Origin: Bolinopsis microptera
Taxonomy: Eukaryota; Ctenophora; Tentaculata; Lobata; Bolinopsidae
Direction: 5' to 3'
Assembly (NCBI RefSeq): GCF_026151205.1
Contig: NC_087083.1
Location: 4,132,460 to 4,196,459 of the forward strand
Length of the DNA stretch: 64,000 bases
The notes under the pieces are model-generated. The model worked only from the letters and a program-made list of their open reading frames with translations. It was not told the DNA's origin and did not search any database. Both the position numbers and the translations under genes were made by a program. Positions 24,186-63,295 of the stretch are shown here, one piece after another. The stretch's first letter is position 1; each line of letters begins with the position of its first letter.

Positions 24186-24657
24186 GTATTAAACATTAAC
24201 TTGTTGTTTTGATTTAAATCATTGCTGTATTCAATTTTATTGTGGCTGGTAAAAGGACCCAGTGGCTGGTAAAAGGACCCAGTTGCCTGTATAGTAAGGG
24301 CTTTACCGAACCCCTGGGGACCACAATGTGATAAGATCAGGCCAGATGTTTCTATGTAGAGCAATTTATTTATTTCGGAGCTATGGTTACATGGTATAGC
24401 TCGTGGTCATGTTTAAAGGTCAGTTTATCCTTGTGTGCTAATTATCCATCCAGATGCTTAGTGATCATGCCCTTCTACGATATATAACGTTTAACCATAA
24501 ATTTGTTTTTACCACAGAAACTGTGGCATTAAGGTCAAGAATTAACTTGACCTTAGTGCCAATTAAATGATTCTTCGCTTAAATAAAATTGCAATCCAAC
24601 GAATCTTCACGATGTTAGAACAGATGTGTCAGGGAATAACTTGCCCCTTAGTTTCAG

Positions 24658-37080: not shown

Positions 37081-37488
37081 AATTGATACTTATACTTATA
37101 GTACTCCTTCACCTCCATCCCCCTTCATGTCCTACATCTCCTTATGACATCACTCCCCCTTCAGCCTCTACTACTCCTTTACTACTCCATCTACTGCCTC
37201 ATCTTCTGGACATCAATATCTTCTAGTTTAGTTGAGAATTCTCAACACCCACTTCCAAGTCGAGTACTCTCGACCCACTTAGTCCACATACCTTGCAAAC
37301 TTACAGCAGGGTATTTGTAATGGTCTAAGTCCCTAATACACGCCAAAGATGGTTCCTCTATACTCAACCGTAGGAAAAGAGAATTAGGTGACTGTATTTT
37401 GTTCTAATGTTGATATTAATATAAGTATGTTCTAGTTGTTACTCCTTTTGTTTTAACGATTTTATGGTACTCTCCTTAAATTATTTCA

Positions 37489-39825
37489 ATGCAGTACTGT
37501 AAGTCTAATGTTACCTCTTTTGTAAAGGACTTGGAACATGAATTAGAGAATAAAGTAATTGACAACTTCACGGTATTTCATGATGTTTTCAAAAGTAGTA
37601 TCGATAAAACGTGTAAGTTGGCAACCCCTAAGTCTTCCAAAAGAACTACACAAAATAACCCATGGATCACACCTGGGCTTATAGCCAAAATCAAGCATCA
37701 GCACCAACTCTATGACAATTGGGCTAAAGTTAGAAAGAAAAAATGTAAACTCGGTGAAACTGATTATAAAGGTGGAACATGTCAATGCTTGAAATGTTGT
37801 GAAAAACGTTCTAGATACAAAACTTATAAGGATTATAGAAGGATGGTTAAAAAAGATCGCAAAGATGTTCAAACTAAGTATTTCATGGGAAAATTTGCAG
37901 ACACAAACGGTAATAGTAAGAAGACATGGGAACTGATTAATCAAATACGGGGCAAACAGAAACGGCAAATAAAACCACTGTTTACTATAAACAATGAGAA
38001 GATAACCAATCGTAGAGTAATAGCCAATGAATTTAATAAGTATTTTGTTTCTCTAGCGTCTAATTTAAACGGGGCATATAATGAAATTGGAGAACTAACT
38101 ATTAACAATCTTCCTAGTTTTTATGACTACCTGCCTAGAGCAAACACGTCCAGTATTTTCATTAATGACTGTACAGCTGACGAGGTTAGAATGATTATAT
38201 CTGAACTGAAGAATGGGAAGTCATCCGACATCCCAATACATGTAGTTAAAGAATCGTCTAAAGTGATCTGTCCTATACTATCTTTATTATACAGTGAATG
38301 CATGAGGAATGGAGTATTCCCAGATGATTTAAAGACTGGGAGAATCAGTCCGATCTATAAGAAGGATAATGAGGAATTGCTGGAAAACTATAGGCCAGTA
38401 TCAACTTTAGCTGTTTTTGGTAAGATATTTGAAAAAATTATTTACAACAGACTGTATAGCTTCTTTCAGTCCCAGAAAATGATTTACGAGAACCAGTACG
38501 GATTTAGAAAAAATCACTCCACAAGCCATGCCCTCAACTCCTCAGTGAATTACATAGAATCCTGTCTTAGCAAAAAACTGCATGTACTTGGAATATTTAT
38601 TGATCTATCTAAAGCGTTTGACACGATCTCACATGAAAAACTACTTAATAAACTAGACAACTATGGAATACGTGGAAACGCCAATAGACTCATCGCTAGT
38701 TATCTCTCTAATAGATATCAATATGTCTCTGTACTGGGCGAAGAGTCTGACAAGCTGCCTGTTCTCTTTGGAGTTCCTCAAGGCTCTTGTCTCGGACCCT
38801 TGCTATTTATAATATATGTTAACGACTTATTTAGAACAACTGATCTGGGCAAGTTCATACTATTTGCAGATGACACAAACATATTCGTAGTAGATGAATG
38901 TAGAAAAAAACTGTATGCAAGAGCAAACGAAATTCTCCGTTTGTTACACCAGTACATGAAATGCAACCTATTACATATAAATATAAAGAAATGCTGCTAC
39001 ATTCACTTCAATCCGTCACGTACAGCTACTGATAATGAGGCAGATAACGAATCAGAATATATACTAACTCTAAATAATACGGTAATAAAGCAAGTTAAAG
39101 AGACCAAGTTTTTAGGTGTTATTATTGACGAAAAGCTAAAATGGGATGTTCAAATAAGAGCCCTCAACTCGAAACTTAGGTGTGAGATCGGAAGACTCAG
39201 TAGAATACGACACGTTATCCCGAAAAAACACCATAAAGAATTGTACCACACGTTATTTGAGTCACACCTAAGATTTGGAATATCGGTATGGGGTGGGTCG
39301 AGTAATAATATGCTTCAACCTATCTTCATCACTCAGAAAAAATGTATCAGAATACTATTTGGTGACCTTGAAGCATATCTAGATAAATTTAGAACATGTG
39401 CCAGAACACGTTGTATAGATGAACAAATCCTAGGAAGAGAATTCTTTGAAAAAGAGCATACAAAGCCGTTGTTTAACAAGAACGGCCTTCTTACCGTCCA
39501 CAACCTGTACAAATACACATGTCTATTAGAACTGTTCAAAATTGTCAGATTAGAATCTCCAATCTCACTCCTATCTTTACTCCACAGATCACCATCACAA
39601 AGACGTTCAGACCAGTTCATCACCCCGAACCCATCCTCCTCTTTCATTTATCAATCAACAAAAATGTGGAACGACTGTCGAAAAATTGACAGTATGATAA
39701 GCTTTACTAAGTCAACGAACTTAGTTAAAGTAACACTGAAAAGTGAGCTACTCAAGATACAGTCCAGGTACGAAGATTTAGAATGGACAGAATTAAACTT
39801 CGATAAGAATGAGCTTGTATTTTAA
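37489..39825 (+). CDS. Second LINE reverse transcriptase, 778 aa
   Basis: Open frame with reverse transcriptase blocks in order: the region ISPIYKKDNEELLENYRPVS, FIDLSKAFDTISHEKLL, GVPQGSCLGPLLF and the catalytic FADDTNIFVVDE, then a thumb and C-terminal region ending about residue 778. The N-terminal third is Lys/Cys-rich, with a CQCLKCCEK motif, and no endonuclease domain is present. An in-frame TAA lies 12 bases upstream of the ATG, so the copy is truncated or rearranged at its 5' end. Sequence is distinct from the 12808-15538 LINE, so this is a different CR1/L2/Jockey-type family. The frame is intact. Confidence 0.85.
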   Translation: MQYCKSNVTSFVKDLEHELENKVIDNFTVFHDVFKSSIDKTCKLATPKSSKRTTQNNPWITPGLIAKIKHQHQLYDNWAKVRKKKCKLGETDYKGGTCQCLKCCEKRSRYKTYKDYRRMVKKDRKDVQTKYFMGKFADTNGNSKKTWELINQIRGKQKRQIKPLFTINNEKITNRRVIANEFNKYFVSLASNLNGAYNEIGELTINNLPSFYDYLPRANTSSIFINDCTADEVRMIISELKNGKSSDIPIHVVKESSKVICPILSLLYSECMRNGVFPDDLKTGRISPIYKKDNEELLENYRPVSTLAVFGKIFEKIIYNRLYSFFQSQKMIYENQYGFRKNHSTSHALNSSVNYIESCLSKKLHVLGIFIDLSKAFDTISHEKLLNKLDNYGIRGNANRLIASYLSNRYQYVSVLGEESDKLPVLFGVPQGSCLGPLLFIIYVNDLFRTTDLGKFILFADDTNIFVVDECRKKLYARANEILRLLHQYMKCNLLHINIKKCCYIHFNPSRTATDNEADNESEYILTLNNTVIKQVKETKFLGVIIDEKLKWDVQIRALNSKLRCEIGRLSRIRHVIPKKHHKELYHTLFESHLRFGISVWGGSSNNMLQPIFITQKKCIRILFGDLEAYLDKFRTCARTRCIDEQILGREFFEKEHTKPLFNKNGLLTVHNLYKYTCLLELFKIVRLESPISLLSLLHRSPSQRRSDQFITPNPSSSFIYQSTKMWNDCRKIDSMISFTKSTNLVKVTLKSELLKIQSRYEDLEWTELNFDKNELVF

Positions 39826-41323
39826 AACAGAGTCCTTTGACTTTATTATTTTGAAATTGAAGAATCGTCTGGCCATAACTCATTTCGTTCGCATTACAGA
39901 TTCACATTCACTTTCATTTTCACTATCACGCACAGTACAGGGTCATACCTCAATACCAAATTATTATAGGGCACAAGAACAAATTTGTTTACAATTATCA
40001 AAATTTGTTGAGCCCAGCAGCTTACTTCCTATCCTCTCTTCCCCCGTCGTCTGGAGCGTGTGATTTTTGTTGATATCCGAGCTCTTGTTTTTATCTTTTG
40101 GTTAACTTTCTGTGATTGGACTCGGTATTTTCGTCCCCGCCGAGTGGGACGATGCTTGCTCGCCAGTTAAGCTATACTTTAGATGACACTAATTTCTACA
40201 AACCACCAAATATTAAATATAAAATGTGTCCAGTATGGCGCAAATGCATCATTTGATAATTTCTCGACGCTGTCGTCGGGGTGAGAGTTATCTGAACCAA
40301 CTGCATGCCCCTACGATTGCGTCACCACTGGTGAGCAAGCATTTGTTTGTTGTTTAGTTGTGTTGGAAGGGAACATTACTTGATTAATTCATCCATTAGG
40401 ATTTTAATAACGATGAGCTAAGATATACCGTTCATCTTAGACTATTGGATCAATCTTATTATATGATTAGATTTTATAAACGAACCTGGCATACAAAAGA
40501 TTGTAATGCGGAGGTTGGCTGGCTCTTCTATAATAAATACGACACTCCAACTTACAGAATGCTTGCTAGAGATAAAACAAAATATTATCAGACTATACAT
40601 GCAGCATGAGTAACTGGTGGATAAGCCTTCGGTAAAAACGGATCCGGAAAAGTCAATGCGGCACTCGGGTCCTTGGTATTGTCGTCGGTATATTGTCCAT
40701 TATTTACGTTCTGCTTTCATAGTTCAAACAATAGTGAGCTCTAAATATACAGCTTTAAACCGATTAAGTATGAATGAATGAAATACAATTCAAAAGCATG
40801 AGTAACTCGTAGTGATGTACGATTTCTAGAAAGTTTAAATTAAATTTGGCGCTCACAGGTCCTCGTGATCATGTGATCGCCGCATAATGTTCTGTAAATG
40901 CGCAGGGCACCTTCAAGCTTAAATTTTTCACCATACTGAGGCAGTCAACCAACGCGCGGCTTTATTTTTATGATATGATATGTTTTGATTGTTATTAATA
41001 AATACCAAAATTTAAATTTGTTTTACTAAAAATTTGTTTTACTAGTCACTCAGATGATTTTAAATCAGGACACTTAAATAAAGACACATACTCTGCCCAC
41101 AATAAGGGGCCATAATTCTTAAATTATGTAACAGTATAGAATTATTATTATTATTATTTCCTAATTTAGAGCCACAATGCCAATTGTGATTTTTAAGTGG
41201 TTCAGTCAATATTTTAGAAGGGGAATATGTAGTACATTTTTGACAGTTTCATTTTATATCATTGTGATATTGTGTTTAAATTGTTTGAATACTTTTTACT
41301 TATTCAACTGTAGGTCCTCCTCC
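39826..41323. other. Intergenic region between LINE and arylsulfatase genes
   Basis: LINE 3' tail up to about 40000, then sequence in which I see no gene. The ATG-initiated frame from 41177 upstream of the sulfatase signal peptide is probably 5' UTR or an earlier exon. Confidence 0.5.
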
Positions 41324-44120
41324 ATGAAACTACTACATCGCAGAAATTTCAGGATGTTTGGTCTGTTTCTGGTAACAGTAATGCTACTCTTTCATTCTTC
41401 TTCCTCGACAATCAGTCAGAAAGATTGCACTATTAATCGCAGTAAAACTAATATACTACTAGTAGTAGCTGATGATTTGGGATGGGCTGATATAGGCTTC
41501 AGCCACAAGCCTGATGGGTTTGTGTCTGACAAAGGAATACCCGAAACTCCACACTTGGATAGAACTGCTGAAGAAGGTTTAGTTCTAGACAATCTGTATA
41601 CTCAAGCAGCATGTACTCCAACAAGGGGATCATTAATGACAGGAAAATATGCTTTTAGGCTCGGACAGCTGTTTACTTCTTCCGTTATGACAACAGCGGA
41701 CAAAAAGGGTCCGTCTGACAGGTTCCTTTCAGAGGTGAGTAGGTCCAAGTTTCCTACAACAAGTTTAATTAAAACTCGTTTTTATAGATCTGAATCCCTC
41801 CAATTGTTTAGTCATGAACCATTTCAGTCCAACCTCTTTCAAAAAACAAATTGTGTTTTTTAAAGTGATCGAAATAGTGAAACTAACTTTAGAAATAGTG
41901 CATTCAATTGGGTATCTTGATCCAAAACAATCATATCTATTCATGCTTTCAGGAATTATCAGAAAGTGGCTATAGAGTCCATGGTGTTGGTAAGTGGCAT
42001 CTTGGCCATCAAAAAGGTAACCTACCTACACAAAAAGGCTTTGATTCTTTTTATGGAATTTATTCTGGTATGGGATCATACTACATTCATAAGGGAGTGG
42101 GACACTCTTATAAAAATGGAGTATGGCTTCATAACCAGGAAGATCATGATTTTCATTATGACTACAGGAATGGGTCTGAGTCTGTGTTCACTGAAACTGA
42201 GGATGATAAGGGTGTTCACTCTACTGACTTGTTCACTAAAGCAGCAGTCAGTAGAATAAAGGAGCACAATAAAACATCACCTTTGTTTCTGTATGTTGCA
42301 TACACTGCCCCTCATTCACCTCTAGAACCTGATGAATCTATTGTTGCTAAGAGAAACAACCACATCATTGATGTGGAGAGAAGGCGCTATGCTGCCATGG
42401 TAACACAGATGGATGATGGATTCGGAGAGATCCTTTCTGCACTTGAGGAAAGAAGTATGAAGGAGAACACAGTGATAATATTTGTAAGTGATCACGGTGC
42501 AGCACTAGTTAAATCCTGTTGGGACTATGTTGGTGGGAGTAATAAACCATATCGTGATGGTAAATTTACGTTTTTTGAAGGTGGAATAAAGAGTGCTGCG
42601 TTCATCTGGGCACCGTGGCTTAATGATGGTGTAAAGGGTACTCACAGCAAAGCTCTTGCTCATGTTGTTGATATCCATTTCCTGGTGTTATCCTTGGCAG
42701 GTAATAATTTCATAATAATCATGTACTTAATGCCAGAGGGGGTAGAGGGATCAAAATCATTTTTCTAGTTTTAACATAATATGTGATAGAGCTGCTGGAG
42801 ATGACCGAGAAGGAAAGAACCACATAAAAATCTAACCTTGTGTTGCTGAGATATTGCACGCAAAAGTTGGAGGTTCTGAAAATGACTGGCCACTCCCAGA
42901 AACTGAGACTTGGCACAGGTGTTTCTTGGGCTAAGTTGTGGTTTTCCTTTTTTAAGTTTTATATTTGAGGTATACCGCAAACGTTGGCATGCATTATCTC
43001 AGAAACACACGGTCAGATTTTTGGTTCTTTCCTACTCGTTCATCTCCAGCAGCTCTATCATATTATATTATGTTAAAACTAGAAAAATGATTTTTACCCC
43101 TCCCTCTTTGGCCTTAAACTCAGACTCTGAAGACCTAGATAATCTAATTATGAACATTTAGAATTCCACTTAAATTATAAACATGTTTTGAATACACTTC
43201 ACATAACTTCTTCAATCCTGAGTAAAATGTAATCTTATGACCTGGTTACAAACTAACGTGAACTTAGATTTGTTTTCAGGAATGACAGAAACTATCTCGG
43301 GCATGTTTCAAATTACTGAAGGAGGATTCAAAAAAGATGGTGGAAACTCCTTGCTCAGATCTCTTCATGGTGATCATTCTGGCAGGTTCGAACATAATAT
43401 GATATAATATGATATTCATTTATCTACTTTTTCTATCATGGTGGAAAATTCTTGAGATAATAATGGTGATAATTAAATCTAGAATTGATCTTTAATTTAC
43501 TGTATCATGCTAATATATGACAATTTGAAAATACCCATGGCTTGGTTAGTGGTTACACGCAAATAGATTTAGGCCTTGTGGTTGTTTGTGGTCTGGTTGT
43601 GATCTGAGCAACAAGACCTTTATATTATTAATGTGTGACCTGTAGACATTCAAAAAATCACCTATTGCATTGTGATGCGACCTATAGAGTATAGAGTATA
43701 AATAAATATCATAATGAGTAAGTTCTGCATTTCCTGTTATACATACGCTACCTCACAGCAATAATTAAATTACACAGAGATACAATCCTGCACAATCTGG
43801 TTGTCAACAAACTACCAGAAGATAAGCTTGTAAAGTACTGCAGTCCCACCACCGCACAGCCTGCCCAATATGGTGTTATCAGACACCACCACTACAAACT
43901 GTTTTATGGTGATTTACAAAGTTGGTGTCACTCTCACCTCCTGACAGAACCCTGTCCTGACCTGGTGTTTGTGAGGGGGAGGGCTGCAATGTTGTTTGAC
44001 TTAGAGATAGATCCGTATGAGAGGGTGAATATAGCAGCAAGTAATATTGATGTAGTGGAGAAGTTAGCTGCTATGATATTGAAATATTCTAAAGATGCCC
44101 CCTCTCAGTGGGTCGTATAG
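41324..44120 (+). CDS. Arylsulfatase B-like sulfatase, paralogue 1
   Basis: Lysosomal or secreted type-I sulfatase, family role hydrolysis of sulfate esters such as N-acetylgalactosamine 4-sulfate. Exons 41324-41734, 41953-42700, 43280-43385 and 43778-44120 join in frame to 535 aa, the usual length for this family. The start at 41324 gives a signal peptide (MKLLHRRNFRMFGLFLVTVM); an in-frame ATG lies upstream at 41177. Visible active-site elements: metal-binding ADDLGW, the CTPTRG formylglycine motif, GKWHLG, the HSPLEP histidine region and SDHGA. The C-terminal region in exon 4 ends DAPSQWVV. An alternative ATG (MFGLFL) is possible. Confidence 0.9.
42729..43118. mobile_element. Foldback element in arylsulfatase 1 intron 2
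   Basis: About 130-bp inverted arms (roughly 42739-42868 and 42984-43114), sharing for example TAGAGCTGCTGGAGATGA on the left and its reverse complement on the right, separated by about 115 bp. TTAA stands on both outer sides, which suggests a piggyBac-like TTAA target. The element has no open frame of its own. Confidence 0.65.
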
Positions 44121-44735
44121 GTGAGCTGTTTGTTTTTACTTGAGAGCTATTGTCGTCGAGTTTTCCTTACATGATTTGTATTTAGATATCCCTAATAAAT
44201 GTAGCCCCAAATGGTGACCGAAATGGTAAAAAGTGTATTTTTATTGGTATAATTATTGCTTAATTACATTGTTTGTTTTAATTTGTCTGCACTTGTGTCA
44301 GCTTTATAAACCTACACTATGTATAGGAAATATAATATAGGATATCAGATTAACAGTATGTTTGTTTTACTGTCAATAGATGATAATAATTCGATTCATT
44401 GATGTTAAAATGATATTATAGTGTACAAGAGTCGGGTATGATTGGACATGGATGAATAAGGAGCAAACTCAGTCACAATTAACTTATTTATTTCATCTTT
44501 TACTTTTGGTTCCTATCTTAGTTATAGTAACAGTGTTGTCTTTAACTTTTGATTCCTAACCCACGTTTGCAGTTAACCATTAAAGCTACTCTATATTATT
44601 TTTATTGTCTAAACTTAACCGTTTAAGGTAAGCTATATATAGTTTTATTGTCTATTTGTTTGTATCTTGATCTGAAACTGATTTTGGCCAACATTTTAAA
44701 ATCAGCCAGGTAATATGATAAATATATGTAGTACA
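44121..44735. other. 3' flank of arylsulfatase 1
   Basis: 3' UTR and intergenic sequence. An AATAAA-type signal is present near 44192 (cctaataaatgtag). Confidence 0.5.
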
Positions 44736-45095
44736 TTTTAGTATACATTAAAGTATACATTGTACATTATAGTATACATTATAGTATGTATTAAACATTA
44801 TAGTGTACATTATAGTGTACATTATAGTTTACATTATAGTTTACATTATAGTGTACATTATAGTGTACATTATATTATACATTATAATGTACATTATACT
44901 ATACATTATAGCATACATTATACATTATATTATACATTATAGTATACATTATGGTATACATTATAGTGTATATATTATTATACATTATAGTATACATTAT
45001 AGTATACATTATATTATAAATTATAGTATACATTATAGCATACATTATACATTATAGTATACATTATATTATGCATTATAGTATACATTTTATTA
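44736..45095. repeat. Minisatellite (TACATTATAGTA)n
   Basis: About 30 degenerate units of 9-12 bp around tacattatag between the two sulfatase genes. Multiple open frames result from the repeat only. Confidence 0.9.
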
Positions 45096-45423
45096 GTATA
45101 CCATACTCTCATTCGTGTGTTAATTGTAAATTCTCCCCTGGATGTTGCAGTTTTACAGTTAAACAGTTTTACAGTTAAACAGTTTAATATAGTGAAGTGT
45201 GAAATGAGGCCAACATTTGGCTTCTCTACTGTACTTCACTTTCTCTATACCTTGATACCTCTTGTTGTTATAACTCACAGCTGCTGTTCACATTGCTGTT
45301 AAATGTTAGACTGCACTTCCCTTAATGTCATTAAAGTTTATCTGAAGTTTCCGAGATAACAGGATTATCAGTGCATTTAGTTGATAAAATGTTTTATATT
45401 TTCAATGGAATGTTATGACGATG

Positions 45424-45431
45424 ACGTCACT
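45424..45431. promoter_or_regulatory. CRE-like palindrome upstream of arylsulfatase 2
   Basis: TGACGTCA in the context gatgacgtcacta, 90 bp upstream of the ATG at 45519. It is a consensus CREB/ATF site. Function is inferred from position. Confidence 0.45.
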
Positions 45432-45518
45432 ATACCACCGTTACAGGTGTTCCACTAGATGATATCAGCACACTAAAGCAACAGAGGAGATAACAACCAA
45501 ACAAGAGAGGAGATAAGA

Positions 45519-47568
45519 ATGGTGTGTTGGTTAATATTGCTGGTAATAATGAATGTAGCAGTAATGGAACCACAAGAGGAATACTGTAGGATAACAGCAC
45601 CTAATATACTACTAGTTATAGCTGATGATTTGGGATGGGCTGATATTGGCTTCAGCCACAAGCCTGATGGGTTTGTGTCTGACAAAGGAATACCCGAAAC
45701 TCCACACTTGGATAGAACTGCTGAAGAAGGTTTAGTTCTAGACAATCTGTATACTCAAGCAGCATGTACTCCAACAAGGGGATCATTAATGACAGGAAAA
45801 TATGCTTTTAGGCTCGGACAACTGTTTACTTCTTCTGTCATGGGACCGCAAGAGAAGGAGAGCTCTTCTCACAAGTTTCTATCCAAGGTAAATAACAAAT
45901 TCCTAGCATAATACCTTTTGGGAATAATTGATTATCTCTCGAAGTTGCCAGTACAAAACTGAATGCTTTCAGAATGCCAATAAAATATTTCTAATACAAT
46001 ATATAATATTATATTGTATGTATCTTCAGGAGCTTGCCGAAAGAGGGTACAAAGTACACGGGGTTGGTAAATGGCACCTGGGACACAGGGAAAAGAGATA
46101 TCGTCCCACTGAAAGAGGATTTGATAGTTTCTACGGTCTGTACAAAGGAATGGGGACTCACTACACTCACCACCACGTCTCCCACCCCTGGCTAGGTGAA
46201 ACGTGGGGACGGCACTTTGGAGATCATGATTTTCATTATGACTACAGGAACGGGTCTGAGTCTGTGTTGACTGAGACTGAGGATGATGAGGGAGTTCACT
46301 CTACTGAATTGTTTACTAAAGCAGCAGTCAGTAGAATAAAGGAGCACGATAAAACATCACCTTTGTTTCTGTATGTTGCATACACTGCCCCTCATTCGCC
46401 CCTAGAACCAGATGAATCTATTGTTGCTAAGAGAAACAACCACATCATCGATGTGGAGAGAAGGCGCTATGCTGCCATGGTAACACAGATGGATGATGGA
46501 TTCGGAGAGATCCTTTCTGCACTTGAGGAAAGAAGTATGAAGGAGAACACAGTGATAATATTTGTAAGTGATCACGGTGCAGCACTAGTTAAATCCTGTT
46601 GGGATTATGTTGGTGGGAGTAATAAACCATATCGTGATGGTAAATTTACGTTCTTTGAAGGTGGAATAAAGAGTGCTGCGTTCATCTGGGCCCCGTGGCT
46701 TAATGATGGTGTAAAGGGTACTCACAGCAAAGCTCTTGCTCATGTTGTTGATATCCATTCCCTGGTCTTATCACTGTCAGGTAATAATTTCATAATAATC
46801 ATGATAATCATGTACTTAAGACTTATCAGTTATCACCGTCAACAGCTCATAAAAGTTATTATATTTTTAGTGAAAGTTGAAGAAATTTAAAACTGATACA
46901 TTGGGCCTGCAAACCATTTAAACGATGATTTAGTTTGAATATTAATATTGATTCAATCTATTATGGTCTTAGAACAACTTTATTTTTTGATCAAAATAAC
47001 AAAAACTGAATTTTCAGGTTGCATGACTAACTTAGTTGATAACAAAATAAACAATGAAGATGGAAGCATGTCCCTGATACGTGCTCTTAAAGGAGATCAT
47101 AGTGGCAGGTTTGTTGAATGTATAATATTCTTATGTGACAAACAATATTCCCATATCACTACTTTTACATATTTCACTTTCATTTTCACTTTCACTTTCA
47201 CTAACCCCAATATATAATGTTACAGAGATACGATCCTGCACAACCTTGTCTCCACCCCCCTCCCACTAAACAAGTTAACAAAGTACTGCAGTCCCACTAC
47301 CCCTCAACCCGGTAACTATGGTGTTATCAGATATCACAACTACAAGCTCTTCTACGGAGACCTGGTGATGTGGTGTCACTCTGACCTCCTGACAGAACCC
47401 TGTCCTGACCTGGTGTTTGTGAGTGGGAGGGCTGCAATGTTGTTTGACTTAGAGATAGACCCGTATGAGAGGGTGAATATAGCAGCAAGTAATATTGATG
47501 TAGTGGAGAAGTTAGCTGCTATGATATTGGAATATTCTAAAGATGCCCCCTCTCAGTGGGTTGTGTAA
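45519..47568 (+). CDS. Arylsulfatase B-like sulfatase, paralogue 2
   Basis: Tandem paralogue of the gene at 41324-44120, with the same four-exon structure and intron phases: 45519-45887, 46030-46780, 47018-47108 and 47226-47568, 517 aa. The N-terminus (MVCWLILLVIMNVAVM) is a short signal peptide. ADDLGW, CTPTRG, GKWHLG and SDHGA are all present, so it should be active if CTPTRG is converted to formylglycine. Exon 1, the latter two-thirds of exon 2 and exon 4 are nearly identical to paralogue 1. The 5' part of exon 2 (RYRPTERGFDSFYGLYKGMG onward) and exon 3 differ strongly, and exon 3 is 15 bp shorter. Confidence 0.9.
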
Positions 47569-48332: not shown

Positions 48333-48333
48333 A
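48316..48333 (+). promoter_or_regulatory. uORF of five codons overlapping the ADSS start
   Basis: ATGACAGGAGGGCTCTGA encodes MTGGL, and its stop TGA ends at the A of the ADSS ATG (TGATG). If included in the mRNA, it would place termination directly at the main start and could lower or gate translation. The transcription start is unknown. Confidence 0.4.
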
Positions 48334-51300
48334 TGACGTCACCAAGTCACGTGACTATAGTGCTGGGCTCCCAGTGGGGGGATGAGGGAAAGGGTAAAGT
48401 GGTGGATTTGTTGGCTGAGAAGGCAAACATTGTCGCTAGATGCCAGGTTAGTAACTATTTTGTCAGAAAGGGCAGGAACCGAGAGTGCCCAATGTCATGA
48501 CAATTTTACGACAAAATGTGACAATATGAGCAGGGAATGACAGGGAATGACAGGGAATGACAGGGAACGGCAGGAAATGGCAGGGAATGACAGGGAACGA
48601 CAATACCTTACTCTGGAATATTATAGCGGGTTAAATTTATGACTGGGAAAATTAATGACCAGGAAAAATATGGCGGAATTTTCCAAAACCCACCAAGCAT
48701 CAAAATGTATTACTATTAGTTTACATTACTCGGGAACATTATAGCGGGTTAATTTATGACTGGGAAAATTAATGACCGGGAAAAATATGGCGGAATTTTC
48801 CAAAACCCACCAAGCATCAAAATGTATTACTATTAGTTTACATTACTCGGGAACATTATAGCGGGTTAATTTATGACTGGGAAAATTAATGACCGGGAAA
48901 AATATGGCGGAATTTTCCAAAACCCACCACGTTATCCCAGTCATAATATTCCCGAATAATGTATTCGACAAACGGTGGGAAAAATCAAAAAGGGCACTCT
49001 CGGTTCCTGCCCCAGAAAGTTAGATATTGGTCAGTTTTACATTTTAAGAGAAGATATTAATAAGCCGATTAAGAGCCATTGTTAAAAAAGAGAGGCTTGT
49101 TATTGTAGTAGTAGGAGATTATTATTGACACATTACCTTCCCCACAGGGAGGAAACAATGCGGGGCACACAGTAGTAGTAGGAGATTGTTATTGACACAT
49201 TACCTTCCCCACAGGGAGGAAACAATGCGGGGCACACAGTAGTAGTAGGAGATTATTATTGACACATTACCTTCCCCACAGGGAGGAAACAATGCGGGGC
49301 ACACAGTAGTAGTAGGAGATTGTTATTGACACATTACCTTCCCCACAGGGAGGAAACAATGCGGGGCACACAGTAGTAGTAGGAGATTATTATTGACACA
49401 TTACCTTCCCCACAGGGAGGAAACAATGCGGGGCACACAGTAGTAGTAGGAGATTATTATTGACACATTACCTTCCCACAGGGAGGAAACAATGCGGGGC
49501 ACACAGTAGTAGTAGGAGATTATTATTGACACATTACCTTCCCCACAGGGAGGAAACAATGCGGGGCACACAGTAGTAGTAGGAGATTATTATTGACACA
49601 TTACCTTCCCCACAGGGAGGAAACAATGCGGGGCACACAGTAGTAGTAGGAGATTATTATTGACACATTACCTTCCCCACAGGGAGGAAACAATGCGGGG
49701 CACACAGTAGTAGTAGGAGATTATTATTGACACATTACCTTCCCCACAGGGAGGAAACAATGCGGGGCACACAGTAGTAGTAGGAGATTATTATTGACAC
49801 ATTACCTTCCCCACAGGGAGGAAACAATGCGGGGCACACAGTAGTAGTAGGAGATTATTATTGACACATTACCTTCCCCACAGGGAGGAAACAATGCGGG
49901 GCACACAGTAGTAGTAGGAGATTATTATTGACACATTACCTTCCCCACAGGGAGGAAACAATGCGGGGCACACAGTAGTAGTAGGAGATTATTATTGACA
50001 CATTACCTTCCCCACAGGGAGGAAACAATGCGGGGCACACAGTAGTAGTAGGAGATTATTATTGACACATTACCTTCCCCACAGGGAGGAAACAATGCGG
50101 GGCACACAGTAGTAGTAGGAGATTATTATTGACACATTACCTTCCCCACAGGGAGGAAACAATGCGGGGCACACAGTAGTAGTAGGAGATTATTATTGAC
50201 ACATTACCTTCCCCACAGGGAGGAAACAATGCGGGGCACACAGTAGTAGTAGGAGATTATTATTGACACATTACCTTCCCCACAGGGAGGAAACAATGCG
50301 GGGCACACAGTAGTAGTAGGAGATTATTATTGACACATTACCTTCCCCACAGGGAGGAAACAATGCGGGGCACACAGTAGTAGTAGGAGATTATTATTGA
50401 CACATTACCTTCCCCACAGGGAGGAAACAATGCGGGGCACACAGTAGTAGTAGGAGATTATTATTGACACATTACCTTCCCCACAGGGAGGAAACAATGC
50501 GGGGCACACAGTAGTAGTAGGAGATTATTATTGACACATTACCTTCCCCACAGGGAGGAAACAATGCGGGGCACACAGTAGTAGTAGGAGATTATTATTG
50601 ACACATTACCTTCCCCACAGGGAGGAAACAATGCGGGGCACACAGTAGTAGTAGGAGATTGTTATTGACACATTACCTTCCCCACAGGGAGGAAACAATG
50701 CGGGGCACACAGTAGTAGTAGGAGATTGTTATTGACACATTACCTTCCCCACAGGGAGGAAACAATGCGGGGCACACAGTAGTAGTAGGAGATTATTATT
50801 GACACATTACCTTCCCCACAGGGAGGAAACAATGCGGGGCACACAGTAGTAGTAGGAGATTATTATTGACACATTACCTTCCCCACAGGGAGGAAACAAT
50901 GCGGGGCACACAGTAGTAGTAGGAGATTATTATTGACACATTACCTTCCCCACAGGGAGGAAACAATGCGGGGCACACAGTAGTAGTAGGAGATTATTAT
51001 TGACACATTACCTTCCCCACAGGGAGGAAACAATGCGGGGCACACAGTAGTAGTAGGAGATTATTATTGACACATTACCTTCCCCACAGGGAGGAAACAA
51101 TGCGGGGCACACAGTAGTAGTAGGAGATTGTTATTGACACATTACCTTCCCCACAGGGAGGAAACAATGCGGGGCACACAGTAGTAGTAGGAGATTGTTA
51201 TTGACACATTACCTTCCCCACAGGGAGGAAACAATGCGGGGCACACAGTAGTAGTAGGAGATTGTTATTGACACATTACCTTCCCCACAGGGAGGAAACA

Positions 51301-54300
51301 ATGCGGGGCACACAGTAGTAGTAGGAGATTATTATTGACACATTACCTTCCCCACAGGGAGGAAACAATGCGGGGCACACAGTAGTAGTAGGAGATTATT
51401 ATTGACACATTACCTTCCCCACAGGGAGGAAACAATGCGGGGCACACAGTAGTAGTAGGAGATTATTATTGACACATTACCTTCCCCACAGGGAGGAAAC
51501 AATGCGGGGCACACAGTAGTAGTAGGAGATTGTTATTGACACATTACCTTCCCCACAGGGAGGAAACAATGCGGGGCACACAGTAGTAGTAGGAGATTGT
51601 TATTGACACATTACCTTCCCCACAGGGAGGAAACAATGCGGGGCACACAGTAGTAGTAGGAGATTATTATTGACACATTACCTTCCCCACAGGGAGGAAA
51701 CAATGCGGGGCACACAGTAGTAGTAGGAGATTGTTATTTACACATTACCTTCCCCACAGGGAGGAAACAATGCGGGGCACACAGTAGTGGTAGGAGAGAC
51801 ACACTACGACTTCCACCTCCTCCCCTCCGGTGTTGTGTATCAGGACGTGTCCTGTGTTATTGGTAATGGGGTGGTGGTGCACGTACCCTCTCTCTTCGAG
51901 GAGATCGACAAGAACATCGCTAAAGGTAGGGTGTCCAGCATAGTAACCTGGTAACATGTAACCATAGTAACCAGGTAACTTGTAACATGTAACATGTAAC
52001 ATGTAACCAGGTAACATGTAACCACAGTAACCATAGTAACATGTAGCCACAGTAACCAGGTAACATGTAACCAGGTAACATGTAACCAGGTAACATGTAA
52101 CCAGGTAACATGTAACCAGGTAACATGTAACCAGGTAACATGTAACCAGGTAACATGTAACCAGGTAACATGTAACCAGGTAACATGTAACCAGGTAACA
52201 TGTAACATATAACCAGGTAACATGTAACCAGGTAACATGTAACATATAACCAGGTAACATGTAACCAGGTAACATGTAACATATAACCAGGTAACATGTA
52301 ACATGTAACCAAATAACATGTAACCATAGTAACATGTAATTAAGTAACATGTAACCACAGTAACCAAGTAACATGTAACCACAGTAACCAGGTAACCACA
52401 GTAACATGTAACATGTACTGCTCCAGGATGTGAGGGTATAACAGATCGTCTGATAATATCAGACAGAGCCCACGTGGTAGGAGATCTTCACCAGACAGTG
52501 GACGGACTGTACGAGGCTGAGAAACAAGGCAACAGTCTGGGTACTACAAAGAAAGGTAATTGTGTGATTGTGTGAGTGTGTGTGTGTGAGTGTGTGTAAT
52601 TGTGTGATTGTGTAATTGTGTGAGTGTGTGTGATTGTGTGAGTGTGTGATTGTGTGATTGTGTAATTGTGTAATTGTGTGAGTGTGTGATTGTGTGAGTG
52701 TGTGAGTGTGTGTAATTGTGTAATTGTGTAATTGTGTAATTATGTAATTGTGTGAGTGTGTGATTGTGTGTAATTGTGTGATTGTGTAATTGTGTGAGTG
52801 TGTAAATGTGTGAGTGTGTGTTATTGTGTGAGTGTTTGATTGTGTAAATGTGTTAAACATTACACAATATTGTCTCCATACGAAAAGGGTATCCTGAATC
52901 CTGATATTATGAAATAAAACTAGCCTAAATTGTAATAATATGTTAAGTTCTGAAGAAATGTGCCAAACTAGATTGTTCCTGATTGTTCTAATATCTTATC
53001 TAAGATGTATCCCTAGACATTAATTCACTAGGTAGACAGATAAGAGGCAAGTTTGCCCACTCTGACTACAAAATTAGATTATGTTCTTCTTAACAGTATT
53101 ATGACGTCATAAGATCAACTTACATGATACATCACGTACTGTGACGTAAACACTAAAGTAACCTAGTAACTGTAAACTGAGTAACATGTAACCAGGTAAC
53201 ATGTAACCACAGTAACCAGGTAACATGTAACCACAGTAACCAGGTAACATGTAACCACAGTAACCAGGTAACATGTAACCACAGTAACCAGGTAACATGT
53301 AACCAGGTAAGATGTAACCACAGTAACCAGGTAACATGTAACCACAGTAACCAGGTAACATGCAACCAGGTAACATGTAACCACAGTAACCAGGTAACAT
53401 GTAACCACAGTAACCAGGTAACATGTAACCACAGTAACCAGGTAACATGTAACCACAGTAACCAGGTAACATGTGCAGGTATTGGTCCCACATACTCTAC
53501 TAAGATGCAGAGAACAGGTATTCGAATGGCCGACCTGCTAGGGGACCCCGCTCTTCTAAAAGAGAAAGTATGCGGAATAGTGCGAGATTACGCGCTCCGT
53601 TTTCCCGATCATTCATTCGACTCAGAGGAGGAGTACAGAAGACTTGAGCTGTTTATACCTAGGATTACTCCAATGATAAAGGTTCATTTTATTTAAACTA
53701 GAATTGTAAATTGTTTAGTTTTGATATTAATGTCATAAAAGAAAAAGGCTTTTTTTATCTGTTCGAGAATTTTAAATCAGCAGATCTTTTGGCAGGAAAT
53801 TTTGATTTATCACCACCTGGTAATAAAGACGAGTCAGCTGCAGTAGTAAAATGATAATTATGAAGAACTCCTTTAACTTTTGTATTGTAGCCCAGGACTA
53901 GTTGGTGACGTTAGATATTTTGTGCGGTCTGGAATAATAATAATAAAGTTATTAATATTACCTATCTGCACCTGGCTGACTCCTAACTTAAGTTAAATAA
54001 TTTGAATAATTCCCAACGATACTGCCGGAATTCAAGATATTCTCTATGGATATGTGTCTGTTAGACAGGTGTTACCTCAAATAGGCTAGTCAGAAGACAA
54101 CAATAAAAACAGATGTGCAAGTAACGCCCAACCCCTATTGTTAACTGTCTACAAGTGACCACTCTACCTTGACACTGTAATTACCAGCTGACTGGATAAA
54201 GTAGTTTAAATACAAACAACACTGTTCCTCTCATCACTTCTCATCTACATCTCTCAACATGAAGATATTGTGTCTGATCCCCCTCTCCCTCCTCCTCCTC

Positions 54301-57300
54301 CTCCTCCCTCTCTCCCACTCCTGTGGTAGAGAGAGATGGTCTGATAATGCCCTTCAGTACAACGCGTTTAACCGCAGTAAGATCCACCTGAGCCCCATGG
54401 TAACACTAGTTAAGGACCACTTTACCATGTGCTCCTGGGTTAACAAGATGTTACCGGGTAAGGACAACTTCTGGGCGTTTTACGGGACAGAATCCTACCC
54501 TGTGTTTCATATCTCAGATGACCTGAAGAAAGTGGGAGTGTTCAACTCATCAATAGTTCTCAGCAAGACCCCTGACATAACTCTGAACCAGTGGTATCAT
54601 ACCTGTCTCTCCTGGAACGGAGCTAGTGGAGAGTCCAGCCTGTACCTGAACGGAAAACTCATCGGAACAGGCCAGACTTCAGATGGGGTTAAAGTGCCGG
54701 GCGACAGTGAACTGTTCCTAAACTGGTGTCCGTACTCGGACGGAGTGTTCTTTGGAGGCGAGCTGTTTAAACTACAGTTCTACAAAGAAGTCCTGAAAGT
54801 AGAGCAAGTGGAGAGACTGCACCACCAGGGGATATGTTCAGATGTGGATCAGCTGTATACTGATATCATGACGCTGCCCTGGGAGTACTTCATCCTTCAC
54901 GAGAAATACAGGTTTCTTATTCTTCAAAATTCTGCAAAATAAGATGCTTCACCTACCACCAGAATTATAAGCTCCTTTCATAATGCATTTTAAAACCAGT
55001 TCCAGAAGTAATCACGTGACCCCAATATGATAATCACGTGACCCCACTATAACAATCACCTGACCCCACTATAACAATCACGTGACCCCCAGGTTTAACG
55101 TACAGTTAGTGCCAGTAAAGTGCCAGAGTGAACACAGTGCCTGGAACGTGCTGTACAGCGAGAGGTACCTGGGCAACGTTATCTCCATCAAGATGGTGCA
55201 GGATCTCAAGAAGAGATGGGAGTTATTGGAGGAGTTCGCTGGTCATCTCATTGATGAGAGTCTAATTGAACACCTCATCCATCACCACGATATTTAGATG
55301 CCACGACATTTAGATGCCACGATATTTAGATGCCACGACATTTAGATGCCACGATATTTAGATGTACTGGAACGATGATTCGGAAACATTGTTGAACTAA
55401 AGATTTTTTTAAACTTTAAAAGCATAACCTTGTGTTTTATTTTGCTCACGATAGGAAATTTTGAGATCGGAAATTTACGTACTAACACTGTATAGTTCGA
55501 AAAATACCTAAAATTAGGTTTGCACTGACGTCGATATAATTATATTATGATCAAGTGTGGAATATAAGGATGTAAAATATATAAACAGGGAGTTTCAAAG
55601 GTGTGGCGAGGATTACTTTTTAAAACACCCTTACTTGGACTTAACGGGGATTAAGAAACGAAAGCCGCTAATTTTTCTTATTGATAACATGTCTGTTAAT
55701 TAAGATAATCAACAAGTTTGTTGATTAAGACAATTAACAGGTTTTTTAATTAAGACAATTAACGTGTTTTAATTAATTAAGATAATAAACATGCTAATTA
55801 AATAACGACCCCAGGACACAGTACTGTACATGAACGAGGCACTAAATTCTAATAAGAAGATATTAGTTGAGGGAGCCAATGCAGCTATGTTGGATATTGA
55901 CTTTGGTACTTACCCTTACGTTACCAGTAGTAACTGTACGGTTGGAGGCGTGTGTACTGGACTCGGCATTCCTCCTACCAAGGTACTTCACTTTCACTTT
56001 CACTTTCACTTTCATTTTCACTTTCACTTTCATTTTCAATGTGAGGTTTGATTACTGGACTAGGGATTACAGTTTTGTTATAAAGTTGGCTCATGTAGTT
56101 ACTACTGTAGTGTGTCTAATAAAAAGTACTTAAAATGAACAAAAGAGTAAAACTTTGCAACTATGAGTCATCTCAACCGCCATTATTAAATAAATTAAAT
56201 TGTTACTAGTCCTATACTATAATGTTGATAACAGTGTGGGTTGTCTGGTATATTAGCTTTATCAGTGTACTTTAAGGGGGCATACCCCAAAACAGTGGTT
56301 TGTGCCGTCCAGACCAAATGACCTCATAGGCAGTTCAGTGACCTTCTAGCGCACCGTTTCCACACAAAAAAAATTATTTTGAGAATTCCCATTTTTGTAA
56401 TCGAGCATTTCCTGGTTAAGAGTGCAATTTTCGGAAAAAATTATTTTGTGGTTGAGACGCTATAAGTTAATCATTTCTTGCGGTATCGGGTTGAAATTTT
56501 GCTCGCCGTTTATTCACATCTATGTCAAGGTGTGTGTAAAATCTTGATATCGTATCTAAAAAGGCTGGTGTGTTATGAATTTTTAAAGTCAAAAAGCTAA
56601 AATTGTCCTTTTCAGGCTTATTTTAACAAAAAGTCAGTCAGGGAAGATCGGATTATTTGATGCTTGACATCAAATTGTTCTCTGAATTCTGGCGCAGTTT
56701 TTGATGCCCTCAAAAATGTTTTTACTCATTCACCTTCTGATCTATTGGACCTCAAAGCCAAACAACAAATTTAGGCACATTTTTCGTTTTTAATATTTAC
56801 TGATTTTTCTAAAATTTTGATAGGAATGTGCTAGTGACTCTTTGAAGGGTGCAAAATAACCGCAACTAGCACATTTATATATGAGTTATGAACAACAAAA
56901 CATCCTAGAATGCTTCCCTTTGAAGTTATGGGAGAAAATGTGATTTTTTGGCTTTGCAGATAAAAAATCACATTTGCTACTTGAAGGGAACTACATAGGT
57001 TACACATTGAAGTAACAACTGGTGAGTGTAGGTAAGTAGGTGAGTAACAACTGGTGAGTGTAGGTAAGTAGGTGAGTAACAACTGATGAGTGTCGGTAAG
57101 TAGATGAGTAACAACTGGTGAGTGTAGGTAAGTAGGTGAGTAACAACTGGTGAGTGTAGGTAAGTAGGTGAGTAACAACTGATGAGTGTAGGTAAGTAGA
57201 TGAGTAACAACTGGTGAGTGTAGGTAAGTAGGTGAGTAACAACTGGTGAGTGTAGGTAAGTAGGTGAGTAACAACTGGTGAGTGTAGGTAAGTAGGTGAG

Positions 57301-58652
57301 TAACAACTCACACCACCTCTTCAGATATCAGATGTGTTAGGAGTAGTTAAAGCTTACACCACACGAGTTGGAGCGGGAACATTCCCCACCGAACTAACTG
57401 ACGATATAGGTTAACATTCTTTAAATATTTCAAATACCTTAGACTGATAAATTTAATTATTTTATATGTTTTTATCTAATTATTTCTCTTCCCCATTCAT
57501 CTCATCATATCCAAATATCACAATAAAACTTTCACTTTCACTTTCACATACAATTTCACTTTCAAATTTACTAATCTGCTAATTTCAGGTAACGCAATGG
57601 CTGATATTGGACACGAGTACGGAGTAACAACCGGACGTAGACGTAGGTGTGGGTGGCTGGATCTCATGGTGCTCAAATACAGCCACATGGTTAACGGCTT
57701 CACAAGGTACTTGTATAATGTACTATAAAATGTATAATGTATAAAATGTATAATGTATAAAATGTATAACTCATACTGATAGTTGGATAATACAGCCACA
57801 TGGTTATTGGTTAACGGCTTCACTAACTCAGGTACATTATTGTTAAGTTAACAGAAATCACATGATATTAACATAACTCATTACTGTGCCGTTTCTTAAT
57901 GTATAACTAATCTCCCACTCTCCACAGACTAGCAGTTACAAAGCTGGATATTCTTGACACTTTTAAAGAGCTGAAAGTGTGTATAGGATACAAGTTGGAC
58001 GGTAAAGATCTCCTCTCTTTCCCAGCTGATCACGCCTTGTTGGAGAGAATTGAACCTGTTTATACAACTATCAAGGTTACAGATTGCCCTCATTATTACC
58101 GAATGAGAGCAGTAAAATTTCGGGTTTTGTAAATGGGAATGTATAGTATTAATGATAAAATGTTCAGGGTTGGGACTTTCCACCTGTTGACTGCAGAACA
58201 AGTTTATTAACTGAAATAATTAATAATCTAATTAACCAATGTTCAGGGTTGGAACTCCCCGACTGTTGACTGCAGAACATTTGACTCTCTCCCGGATCAA
58301 GCTAAGAAATATCTCTCAACTATCGAGGAGTTTCTAGGTGTCAAAAGTAAGTTTCTAATTATTGTCATAATCTCCGAAACGAACTGTCTGATTATTATTA
58401 TAATACACAGTTCCAATTTTATTATTTAGCATTATATATATATATATATTTCACTGTGATGGAAAGCTGCAAACAGCTGAATAACCGTGAACGATGTTTT
58501 CCATAATATATATATTGTTAATATATGTTAATATATGTTAATATATGTTTTAATATATTGTTAATATATTTTCTAAAATAATTAACATCCGATCTGTTTC
58601 AGTTGGGTGGGTCGGAGTTGGGCAGTCACGTGACTCAATTATTATCATCTGA
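48333..58652 (+). CDS. ADSS: Adenylosuccinate synthetase, 10 exons, 426 aa
   Basis: Cytosolic enzyme joining IMP and aspartate with GTP to make adenylosuccinate, the first step from IMP to AMP. Exons 48333-48446, 51760-51925, 52427-52555, 53479-53681, 55815-55982, 57325-57409, 57589-57706, 57928-58075, 58247-58346 and 58603-58652. Phases match throughout and give 426 residues, close to the usual 430-456. Visible family motifs: the GTP loop [14 protein letters not shown] with catalytic Asp, [12 protein letters not shown] with the catalytic His, GTTKKGIGPTYS, the [17 protein letters not shown] block, [14 protein letters not shown], and the C-terminal [19 protein letters not shown] and GTCACGTGAC lie at the start codon. 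Its introns are unusual: a MITE and a 40-copy acceptor array in intron 1, donor-like minisatellites in introns 2, 3 and 5, a nested gene in intron 4 and partial duplicates of exons 7 and 9. Confidence 0.93.
48470..49012. mobile_element. 543-bp MITE in ADSS intron 1
   Basis: Perfect 21-bp terminal inverted repeats (left GGGCAGGAACCGAGAGTGCC plus C; right its reverse complement), flanked by a 6-bp direct repeat CAGAAA at 48464-48469 and 49013-49018. The interior holds cagggaatga decamer repeats (48532-48600) and three tandem copies of a unit of about 117 bp. It has no coding capacity. Confidence 0.85.
49105..51798 (+). repeat. 67-bp tandem array of ADSS exon 2 splice acceptor and exon start, 40 acceptor copies
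   Basis: Each unit contains acattaccttccccacag (pyrimidine tract plus AG) followed by the first 39 exon bases, encoding [13 protein letters not shown] and then YY or CY and an in-frame TGA. The distance from the first exon start (49148) to the real one (51760) is 2612 bp: 39 steps of 67 bp minus one base for a unit lacking one C (near 49471). There are therefore 40 acceptors. The final unit diverges after GTAGTGGTAGGAGAG and continues as the true exon 2. Units are almost identical; the only common variant is gattattatt versus gattgttatt. The array looks young and may vary in copy number between individuals. Confidence 0.97.
51944..52415. repeat. Minisatellite (GTAACCAGGTAACAT)n in ADSS intron 2
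   Basis: About 30 imperfect units of 10-15 bp built from ccaggtaacatgtaa with added cacagtaacc blocks. Each unit contains CCAG followed by GTAACA, close to a consensus 5' splice site. The array ends 12 bases before the exon 3 acceptor. Confidence 0.93.
52556..52858. repeat. TGTG-rich minisatellite at the start of ADSS intron 3
   Basis: Irregular alternation of tgtgtgattg, tgtgtgagtg and tgtgtaattg units starting directly after the exon 3 donor. Confidence 0.92.
53170..53475. repeat. Minisatellite (GTAACCACAGTAACCAGGTAACAT)n in ADSS intron 3
   Basis: About 13 units of 24 bp (some 14 bp) related to the intron 2 array. It runs to within a few bases of the exon 4 acceptor, and each unit again contains CCAG then GTAACA. 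Confidence 0.93.
53682..54258. other. ADSS intron 4 upstream of the nested gene
   Basis: Probably contains the promoter of the nested gene; gataaagtagtttaaata near 54195 is only weakly TATA-like. No exon is seen. Confidence 0.4.
54259..55297 (+). CDS. Secreted pentraxin/LamG-like protein nested in ADSS intron 4
   Basis: Two exons, 54259-54911 and 55093-55297, join in frame (phase 2) to 285 aa. The product starts with a strong signal peptide ([20 protein letters not shown]). A concanavalin A-like domain follows, with FTMCSWVN, the [20 protein letters not shown] strand (typical W-Y/H-x-C of pentraxins) and [11 protein letters not shown]. The last 67 residues, rich in Leu, Glu and His, match nothing I know. 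The gene lies entirely between ADSS exons 4 and 5 on the same strand. Pentraxins bind ligands through calcium; the calcium site is not evident here. A LamG or other jelly-roll protein is the alternative. Confidence 0.75.
55012..55092. repeat. TCACGTGACCCC repeats in the nested gene's intron
   Basis: Four units of about 24 bp (aatcacgtgaccccaatatga-like) end at the exon 2 acceptor. Three contain CACGTG. The last unit forms the pyrimidine tract gacccccag. Confidence 0.85.
55282..55366 (+). repeat. Tandem copies of the nested gene's stop-codon region
   Basis: About five 17-bp units (acgatatttagatgcc) begin with the last codons and TAG stop of the nested gene. Each later unit repeats the stop followed by ATG (TAGATG), so the coding end itself has been duplicated into the 3' UTR. 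Confidence 0.85.
55298..55814. other. 3' part of ADSS intron 4
   Basis: Besides the stop-codon repeats, only aattaagac/aacatg AT-rich units near 55690-55800 are seen. Confidence 0.5.
55983..57005. other. ADSS intron 5, unique part
   Basis: Starts with a TTTCACTTTCAC pyrimidine repeat (55988-56038) just after the exon 5 donor. The remaining 900 bp has no recognised feature. Confidence 0.5.
57006..57308. repeat. 32-bp minisatellite with consensus 5' splice-site sequences in ADSS intron 5
   Basis: About nine to ten near-identical 32-bp units. Each contains gtgagtgtaggtaagtaggt, that is, both AG-GTAAGT and AG-GTGAGT, which are textbook 5' splice sites. The array ends within about 20 bp of the exon 6 acceptor. 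Confidence 0.93.
57791..57835 (+). repeat. Partial duplicate of ADSS exon 7 3' end
   Basis: tacagccacatggtta, then ttaacggcttcac and aggtac, repeats the end and donor of exon 7 (57678-57710), about 113 bp into intron 7, with small insertions. It is preceded by ataaaatgtataatgt repeats. Confidence 0.8.
58159..58203 (+). repeat. Partial duplicate of ADSS exon 9 5' end with acceptor
   Basis: aatgttcag followed by GGTTGGGACTTTCC and GTTGACTGCAGAACA repeats the exon 9 acceptor and first ten or so codons (58238-58280), 79 bp upstream. The copy encodes [11 protein letters not shown] where the true exon encodes [11 protein letters not shown], then loses similarity. Confidence 0.85.
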
Positions 58653-62150: not shown

Positions 62151-62584
62151 TTTCTAGTACACTTTTACTACGCTGATCTGAGGGTTGTAAACTTTCTCTG
62201 TTGTGATTTTTTCTTATTGGTAACCCGATTTTTTCTCGCATGGATGTGTACACCCCTTTTCTATAAATTTTGCTGAAATTTTCTTCCTTATGGTAACCCT
62301 GATCTTTGTCGCATGTATGTTTACTTTCCTAACCCAATTACCACACTCTCTGGTTCAGAGATCAAACCTCCCCCTTTTCAGTGTAACCTTGATAAAGTCC
62401 AATGCGTGACGAAAATTTGGTTTTACAGTTTACTTAGTTCCTTGTTTCACTTTATTCGCAGTTTTATTTCGGGAGACGTGAAGTCTAAAATGAAAGCTAA
62501 ATTCGATAATAATGTGGAATTCTATTTTGATTGAACTAACAACAAGAACAGACACCTAATAGACTACTCGCTAAATGGCCTGTA

Positions 62585-63151
62585 TATATAATTGTAGCTG
62601 CAGTATATATTATTGTAGCTGCAGTATATATTATTGTAGCTGCAGTATATATTATTGTAGCTGCAGTATATATTATTGTAGCTGCAGTATATATTATTGT
62701 AGCTGCAGTATATATTATTGTAGCTGCAGTATATATTATTGTAGCTGCAGTATATATTATTGTAGCTGCAGTATATATTATTGTAGCTGCAGTATATATT
62801 ATTGTAGCTGCAGTATATATTATTGTAGCTGCAGTATATATTATTGTAGCTGCAGTATATATTATTGTAGCTGCAGTATATATTATTGTAGCTGCAGTAT
62901 ATATTATTGTAGCTGCAGTATATATTATTGTAGCTGCAGTATATATTATTGTAGCTGCAGTATATATTATTGTAGCTGCAGTATATATTATTGTAGCTGC
63001 AGTATATATTATTGTAGCTGCAGTATATATTATTGTAGCTGCAGTATATATTATTGTAGCTGCAGTATATAGTATTGTAGCTGCAGTATATATTATTGTA
63101 GCTGCAGTATATATTATTGTAGCTGCAGTATATATTATTGTAGCTGCAGTA
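62585..63151. repeat. 21-bp satellite containing CTGCAG, about 27 copies
   Basis: Near-identical 21-bp units of tattattgtagctgcagta. Each carries the palindrome CTGCAG embedded in a partly self-complementary unit. Long open frames on both strands are artefacts of the 21-bp period. Confidence 0.96.
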
Positions 63152-63295
63152 TGCTGAGTGCTGACAGCCTGTATCCAGCTGTATAACAGCACATTACACA
63201 CCGTACACCTTGTATTTCAAATATATTGCTGTAAATACGGCGTGCTATTGTACATTGCTTGGAGCATTTCGTAGTACTCACTACGCGGTGGTATG

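Follow-up and report, generated by a model that had tools for sequence, protein, structure and literature searches.

How can a gene carry some forty copies of one of its own splice acceptors and still encode a complete enzyme, and how might such an arrangement arise? The question is raised by a 64,000-nucleotide stretch of the Bolinopsis microptera genome (NCBI RefSeq assembly GCF_026151205.1, contig NC_087083.1, positions 4,132,460 to 4,196,459 of the forward strand; hereafter the window), in which a repeat array runs from intron 1 of ADSS, the gene for the purine-synthesis enzyme adenylosuccinate synthetase, into exon 2. Tandem Repeats Finder (TRF) gives the array a period of 67, 40.2 copies, 99% matches, 0% indels and a score of 5295, in agreement with the usual description of a minisatellite as head-to-tail units of about 10-100 bp with high identity, and a string count finds 40 acceptors of the form CACAG/GGAGGAAACAATGCGGGGCACACA, with exon starts from 49148 to 51760. 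Each 67-bp unit consists of the end of intron 1 with the acceptor of exon 2, followed by the first 38 nt of that exon. The two counts agree with an earlier description made from the letters alone (the sequence-only reading), which had reported a 67-bp unit with the exon 2 acceptor and 40 near-identical acceptors in ADSS intron 1; chance is excluded as the source of the array. The same description called the last exon copy complete, which is right for exon 2 itself with its full 166 nt, with the correction that the repeat reaches into the first 38 nt only. We propose that the array is a young, lineage-specific minisatellite that arose by duplication of a splice junction and is tolerated, the last acceptor being the one chosen; we put the probability of this reading at roughly 0.7.

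The host gene is intact and, at the search sensitivity used, single-copy. Its reconstruction gives the full frame of 10 exons (426 codons plus stop; 1281 nt of coding sequence in a coding span of 10,320 nt). Each of the nine introns begins with GT and ends with AG; the two that flank exon 2 measure 3313 nt and 501 nt. The best relative of the product with a solved structure is adenylosuccinate synthetase 1iwe_A (E = 1.1e-168), and the best named one is the Mnemiopsis leidyi protein P0003 (85%; P numbers denote relatives' proteins). The reconstructed gene thus bears out the identification as ADSS and the presence in each unit of the codons for the GGNNAGHT loop, both of which had been read from the sequence before. 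All seven genome matches to the first 327 ADSS residues (264,652,675 bases in 232 contigs searched) lie within the present locus, which rules out, for that query, the second intact copy that the sequence-only reading had considered as the one possibly expressed. The product begins MTSPSHV at 48333, and the relatives P0001 and P0139 begin MTSPSSEVM[T/R]SPSHV, a difference that perhaps reflects a small local duplication.

By local sequence the 40 acceptors are nearly equal. Twenty-eight units are identical and nine carry a single A>G change (units 1, 3, 23, 24, 30-32, 36 and 37); one, unit 5, is 66 bp long through a one-base deletion (CCCC>CCC), one, unit 39, differs from the commonest unit by two substitutions, and the final unit is the true exon itself. 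The 30 nt upstream are the same for 29 of the 40 acceptors and off by one base for nine more; decoy 6 has one C fewer in its upstream sequence, and acceptor 40 has TTTAC in place of TTGAC in the likely branch region together with the A>G change of the nine. The clear difference among the acceptors is the distance to the exon 2 donor, which is 166 nt for acceptor 40, 233 nt for acceptor 39, 300 nt for acceptor 38 and 2778 nt for acceptor 1.

Only acceptor 40 gives the full enzyme frame. The 39 decoys had been described as running into TGA after about 15 codons; this is the case for 38 of them (15 exon codons, then TGA, for a product of 53 amino acids), and decoy 39, in which the TGA is lost by a G>T change, stops later and gives a frameshifted product of 95 amino acids. 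All 39 stop prematurely, between 59 and 2730 nt ahead of the junction of exons 2 and 3, and by analogy with other animals RNAs spliced to them would be expected to decay. If all acceptors competed equally, about 1/40 (some 2.5%) of the RNA would be productive, which is unlikely for the sole ADSS copy found, and by this arithmetic splicing to the decoys is probably much rarer than to the true site. A chain of in-frame 24-nt GGNNAGHT microexons was considered and rejected: the GTs past the acceptor stand in weak donor contexts (the first is ACA/GTAGTA) and the introns would be only 43 nt long.

Further evidence comes from 357 homologous proteins, fetched as the best 120 of 7992, 120 of 517 and 120 of 987 matches in overlapping sets. 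P0241 was found by searching with the open frame of exon 2 from the window itself; it and four further relatives (P0242-P0245) are probably ctenophore sequences. P0001 (434 aa, 99% identical, with four member sequences) joins exon 1 to the true exon 2 on a single contig of 1965 nt, and derives from spliced RNA or a processed copy, given the coding span of 10,320 nt. It reads QDVA where the window reads QDVS, and so comes from a relative or another allele; P0241 shares the QDVA. P0126 and P0139 continue from exon 1 into unspliced intron 1. No decoy-type ending was seen among the 357 fetched proteins, a weak result, as short products of decaying RNA are rarely catalogued.

P0241 appears to be a close relative without the array. 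It comprises 80 aa on a contig of 685 nt, matches the full length of the exon-2 query at 88% identity, the start of intron 2 included (GRVSSLVTW against GRVSSIVTW, with the exon preserved), and is unspliced or genomic because exon 2 and the start of intron 2 are both retained. Ahead of GGNNAGH it reads MSKTKRLIIDTVPSEQ, which is identical at 9 of 16 residues to the left flank of the array followed by the acceptor core of unit 1, and at only 5 of 16 to the actual sequence before acceptor 40 (6 of 16 if the GAC of the commoner unit is allowed). Over its first nine codons, which lie beyond the acceptor core and concern the flank only, P0241 lies 6 base changes away from the left flank and 12 away from the array; six or fewer were reached by 1 of 5000 shuffles and at 18 of 127,946 window positions. 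This match suggests that the left flank is joined directly to the acceptor there, with no array between. The sequence-only reading had proposed a search for the array in related species. P0243 and P0244, which cover 51 and 48 nt upstream, show no unit sequence there, making 0 of 3 relatives with sufficient reach; P0242 and P0245 cover 30 and 21 nt, too little against the 29-nt intron part of the unit. As far as this small sample goes, the array appears to be young and lineage-specific.

These observations bear on what the array might do. The sequence-only reading had offered three possibilities: tuning of expression through nonsense-mediated decay, titration of splicing factors, or neutrality through choice of the last acceptor. 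A rheostat, with every decoy diverting a little of exon 1 into products that are degraded, so that more units mean less ADSS output and the array sets or regulates the amount of enzyme, would be in keeping with 39 near-identical decoy acceptors, whose premature stops all lie 59 nt or more ahead of the next junction, and with a general preference for upstream 3' sites, as documented in PMC9225289. We nevertheless regard it as unlikely, for the close relative lacks the array, the fetched proteins include no decoy-type ending (the weak test mentioned above), and equal competition would leave the sole ADSS copy found with about one productive transcript in forty. Of the features of poison splicing, an early stop upstream of a junction is present in 39 of 39 decoys, and evolutionary retention is seen in none of the three informative relatives. 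A heritable form of the rheostat, with enzyme output varying among animals according to unit number, seems slightly more doubtful still. The same two observations, the close relative without the array and (weakly) the 357 proteins, leave both decay-mediated tuning and splicing-factor titration unsupported, and neutrality by last-acceptor choice would fit best among the three.

We therefore return to a tolerated junction minisatellite. A tandem duplication would have captured the end of intron 1 (branch region, pyrimidine tract and AG) with the first 38 nt of exon 2, and ordinary repeat slippage or unequal exchange may then have expanded it to about 40 units. Only the last unit adjoins the rest of exon 2 and its donor, an arrangement in which pairing across the exon would favour acceptor 40. 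Most mRNA would be normal, like that of the near-identical relative or other allele in which the normal join is seen, and leakage to the decoys would give the 53-aa (38 decoys) or 95-aa (decoy 39) products from RNA expected to decay. Since choice of the last acceptor would keep most mRNA normal and any leaked RNA would be expected to decay, toleration of the array seems more probable than selection for it. Such a preference has precedent in a transcriptome-wide study, where in long-intron contexts the sites nearest across the exon are preferred, as described in PMC9225289.

Several points weigh on the other side. The same study describes an overall upstream 3' site preference that exon definition merely reduces (PMC9225289). 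P0241 is known as a protein only, and its empty site is read through codons rather than bases. P0001 and P0241 both differ in residues from the window and are silent on splicing when the array is present; the evidence for the splice join is P0001, from a relative or other allele. The copy number of the array may also be misassembled.

This last point leads to an alternative that is compatible with a tolerated minisatellite and leaves the reading of its function unchanged: the array may be real and assembled with too few or too many units, or carried by one haplotype only. If the window belongs to the published Bolinopsis assembly, it was produced with wtdbg, gap closing, haplotig removal and short-read polishing, as described in PMC10232365; that paper also names PacBio Iso-Seq as one of the library types prepared for the three species it covers. 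The C-run deletion in unit 5 would be the type of residual error that such data leave. Two interspersed unit types and distinct edge units speak against a pure assembly duplication, and 2.7 kb is short for long reads; we hold an altered copy number to be improbable. Far less probable is that the decoys serve as targets of spliced-leader trans-splicing, which would yield 5'-truncated RNAs without a start codon. Leaders are frequent in a ctenophore: in Hormiphora californensis 56% of Iso-Seq reads carry one, according to PMC8527503. Against this, the exon 1 donor upstream is normal, and a leader spliced to a decoy would have no start codon. The leader motif AATTTGAGGT (leader end plus GT) is absent from the window, which has no bearing on leader genes elsewhere. 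Rfam gives no match at gathering thresholds in the window.

The nearest known counterpart is CBS 844ins68, a 68-bp duplication of an intron/exon junction in human CBS, for which splicing goes strongly to the distal site and most of the mRNA is normal, as described in PMC2630376 and PMC1334203. Like it, the ADSS array is made of tandem copies of intron end, acceptor and exon start. The human duplication has one extra copy and is a polymorphism with measured splicing, whereas here there are 39 extra copies, known from sequence only; if we read the array rightly, it would work like CBS 844ins68 many times over. The array had been called unusual, and this stands for its copy number, not for the principle, as junction duplications with the distal site favoured are known from that case. 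Human CBS also carries a 31-bp variable number tandem repeat (c.1444_1467+7, 16-21 repeats) over an exon/intron boundary (PMC2630376), again a minisatellite across such a boundary in a metabolic enzyme gene; by its coordinates it spans a donor, with fewer and shorter units, whereas the ADSS array spans an acceptor. Splice sites also recur in tandem in the human polyubiquitin gene UBC, where AGGT in 228-nt in-frame units is described as acting as donor or acceptor (PMC10809524). A dual-specific array of that type was rejected for ADSS, as its units contain no AGGT and their 67 nt are not a multiple of three, which puts them out of frame. A literature search found no report of a similarly large acceptor array, which does not show that none is in print.

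What is new, then, is the scale (about 40 copies) and the natural positional test of splicing that it provides, with forty near-same acceptors, differing mainly by position, before one donor in a gene with an intact frame. Laboratory constructs with a few copies of a duplicated site have served to test which one is taken, the nearest or the one paired across the exon. If only the last acceptor is used, exon pairing would be very strong in a ctenophore; if decoy use is graded, the shape of the gradient would be a direct measure of competition. The array also illustrates the expansion of a repeat from an intron into an exon without destruction of the gene.

The coordinates of the gene and of the parts of the array are collected in Table 1.

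Table 1. Features of ADSS and of its acceptor array (window positions)
Feature	Position	Strand	Basis
ADSS exon 1, start codon to donor CCAG/gttagt	48333..48446	+	genome match
ADSS intron 1, 3313 nt when the last acceptor is used	48447..51759	+	
Left flank; its end resembles by codons the P0241 sequence directly before the acceptor (empty site)	49061..49104	+	
67-bp minisatellite, 40 acceptors; unit spans exon 2 acceptor and exon start	49105..51797	+	TRF and string count
Putative remnant of a unit at the left edge, 22 nt (end of its exon part and beginning of its intron part), without acceptor core	49105..49126	+	sequence; inference
Decoy exon starts, from the first base past acceptor 1 to that past acceptor 39	49148..51693	+	
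True ADSS exon 2, 166 nt, last acceptor to donor AAAG/gtaggg	51760..51925	+	genome match
ADSS exon 3	52427..52555	+	
ADSS exon 4	53479..53681	+	
ADSS exon 5	55815..55982	+	
ADSS exon 6	57325..57409	+	
ADSS exon 7	57589..57706	+	
ADSS exon 8	57928..58075	+	
Second decoy, with greater divergence: exon 9 acceptor and start of that exon, copied in part	58150..58200	+	
ADSS exon 9	58247..58346	+	
ADSS exon 10 to stop codon	58603..58652	+	

The edges and unit types of the array give some indication of its history. The left edge would be all that survives of a 41st unit, its acceptor core having gone as though by a 45-bp deletion. A direct repeat matching at 13 of 14 positions (GTAGT[A/G]GTAGGAGA) at both ends of the array was considered as the seed of the duplication and rejected, as the P0241 flank lacks it; for this reason the left copy more likely comes from the exon, as part of a truncated unit. 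The G-type unit (TTGTTATTGACACA) is closer to the flank (TTGTTATT) than the commoner A type, and on account of this better match may be the older of the two. A very homogeneous 21-bp array elsewhere in the window (62582-63152; 27.2 copies, 99% by TRF) indicates that the homogeneity of the ADSS array is nothing special. Intron 1 also holds a 543-bp element (48470-49012) with perfect 21-bp terminal inverted repeats, flanking CAGAAA repeats and an internal 117-bp repeat of 2.8 copies (TRF), which resembles a small non-autonomous DNA transposon.

The exon 2 junction is not the only one duplicated in ADSS. At the exon 9 acceptor, 51 nt recur 79 bp upstream with 82% identity (58150-58279), a duplication that is probably older, as it is more diverged. 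Tandem arrays make up 4941 of the 10,320 nt of the gene and 38 of its 1281 coding nt, all of the latter in exon 2. An array lies within 25 nt of 11 of the 18 internal junctions, one of which is crossed, a proportion that need not exceed chance since arrays fill about 54% of the intron sequence. In 30 kinase loci arrays account for 2.9%, a loose comparison with the gene because those loci were picked as best matches and most of them span the full profile within a single open frame. By TRF, arrays account for 18.4% of the window; for the Hormiphora genome a figure of 13% by TRF is given in PMC8527503. Arrays as such are common in the window, and the ADSS array differs from the ordinary ones in entering coding sequence.

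Junction duplication at other exon starts was surveyed in about 700 nt upstream of each of 29 hand-picked, mostly partial-profile loci from 136 PF00069 matches, some of the 29 without an AG near the match and two in long open frames. None of the 29 was counted as a duplication; the sole flagged locus (L056) was dropped, as its 68% alignment over an array lay mostly upstream of the match. Applied to the nine ADSS acceptors, the survey rule recovered exons 2 and 9 together with exons 3, 4, 7 and 8, which were flagged on intron arrays or on pairs lying elsewhere; once the true exon start was supplied, what was left was exons 2 and 9 with a single false pair, at exon 3. Because the rule over-calls, 0 of 29 says only that junction duplications are not very common.

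Several other features were noted in the window. Inside ADSS intron 4, on the strand of the gene, an open frame of 245 aa with a signal-peptide-like stretch (54205-54942) is a possible nested gene; 2357 nested intronic genes are given for Hormiphora in PMC8527503. Tandem copies of apparent small cysteine-rich repeat exons, with periods of about 360-392 and 592, occupy 17501-24243. Upstream of ADSS lie two similar adjacent genes (41165-47568) that by motif resemble sulfatases, and two long open frames of 890 aa (12885-15557, minus strand) and 781 aa (37480-39825, plus strand) resemble, likewise by motif, reverse transcriptases of retroelements.

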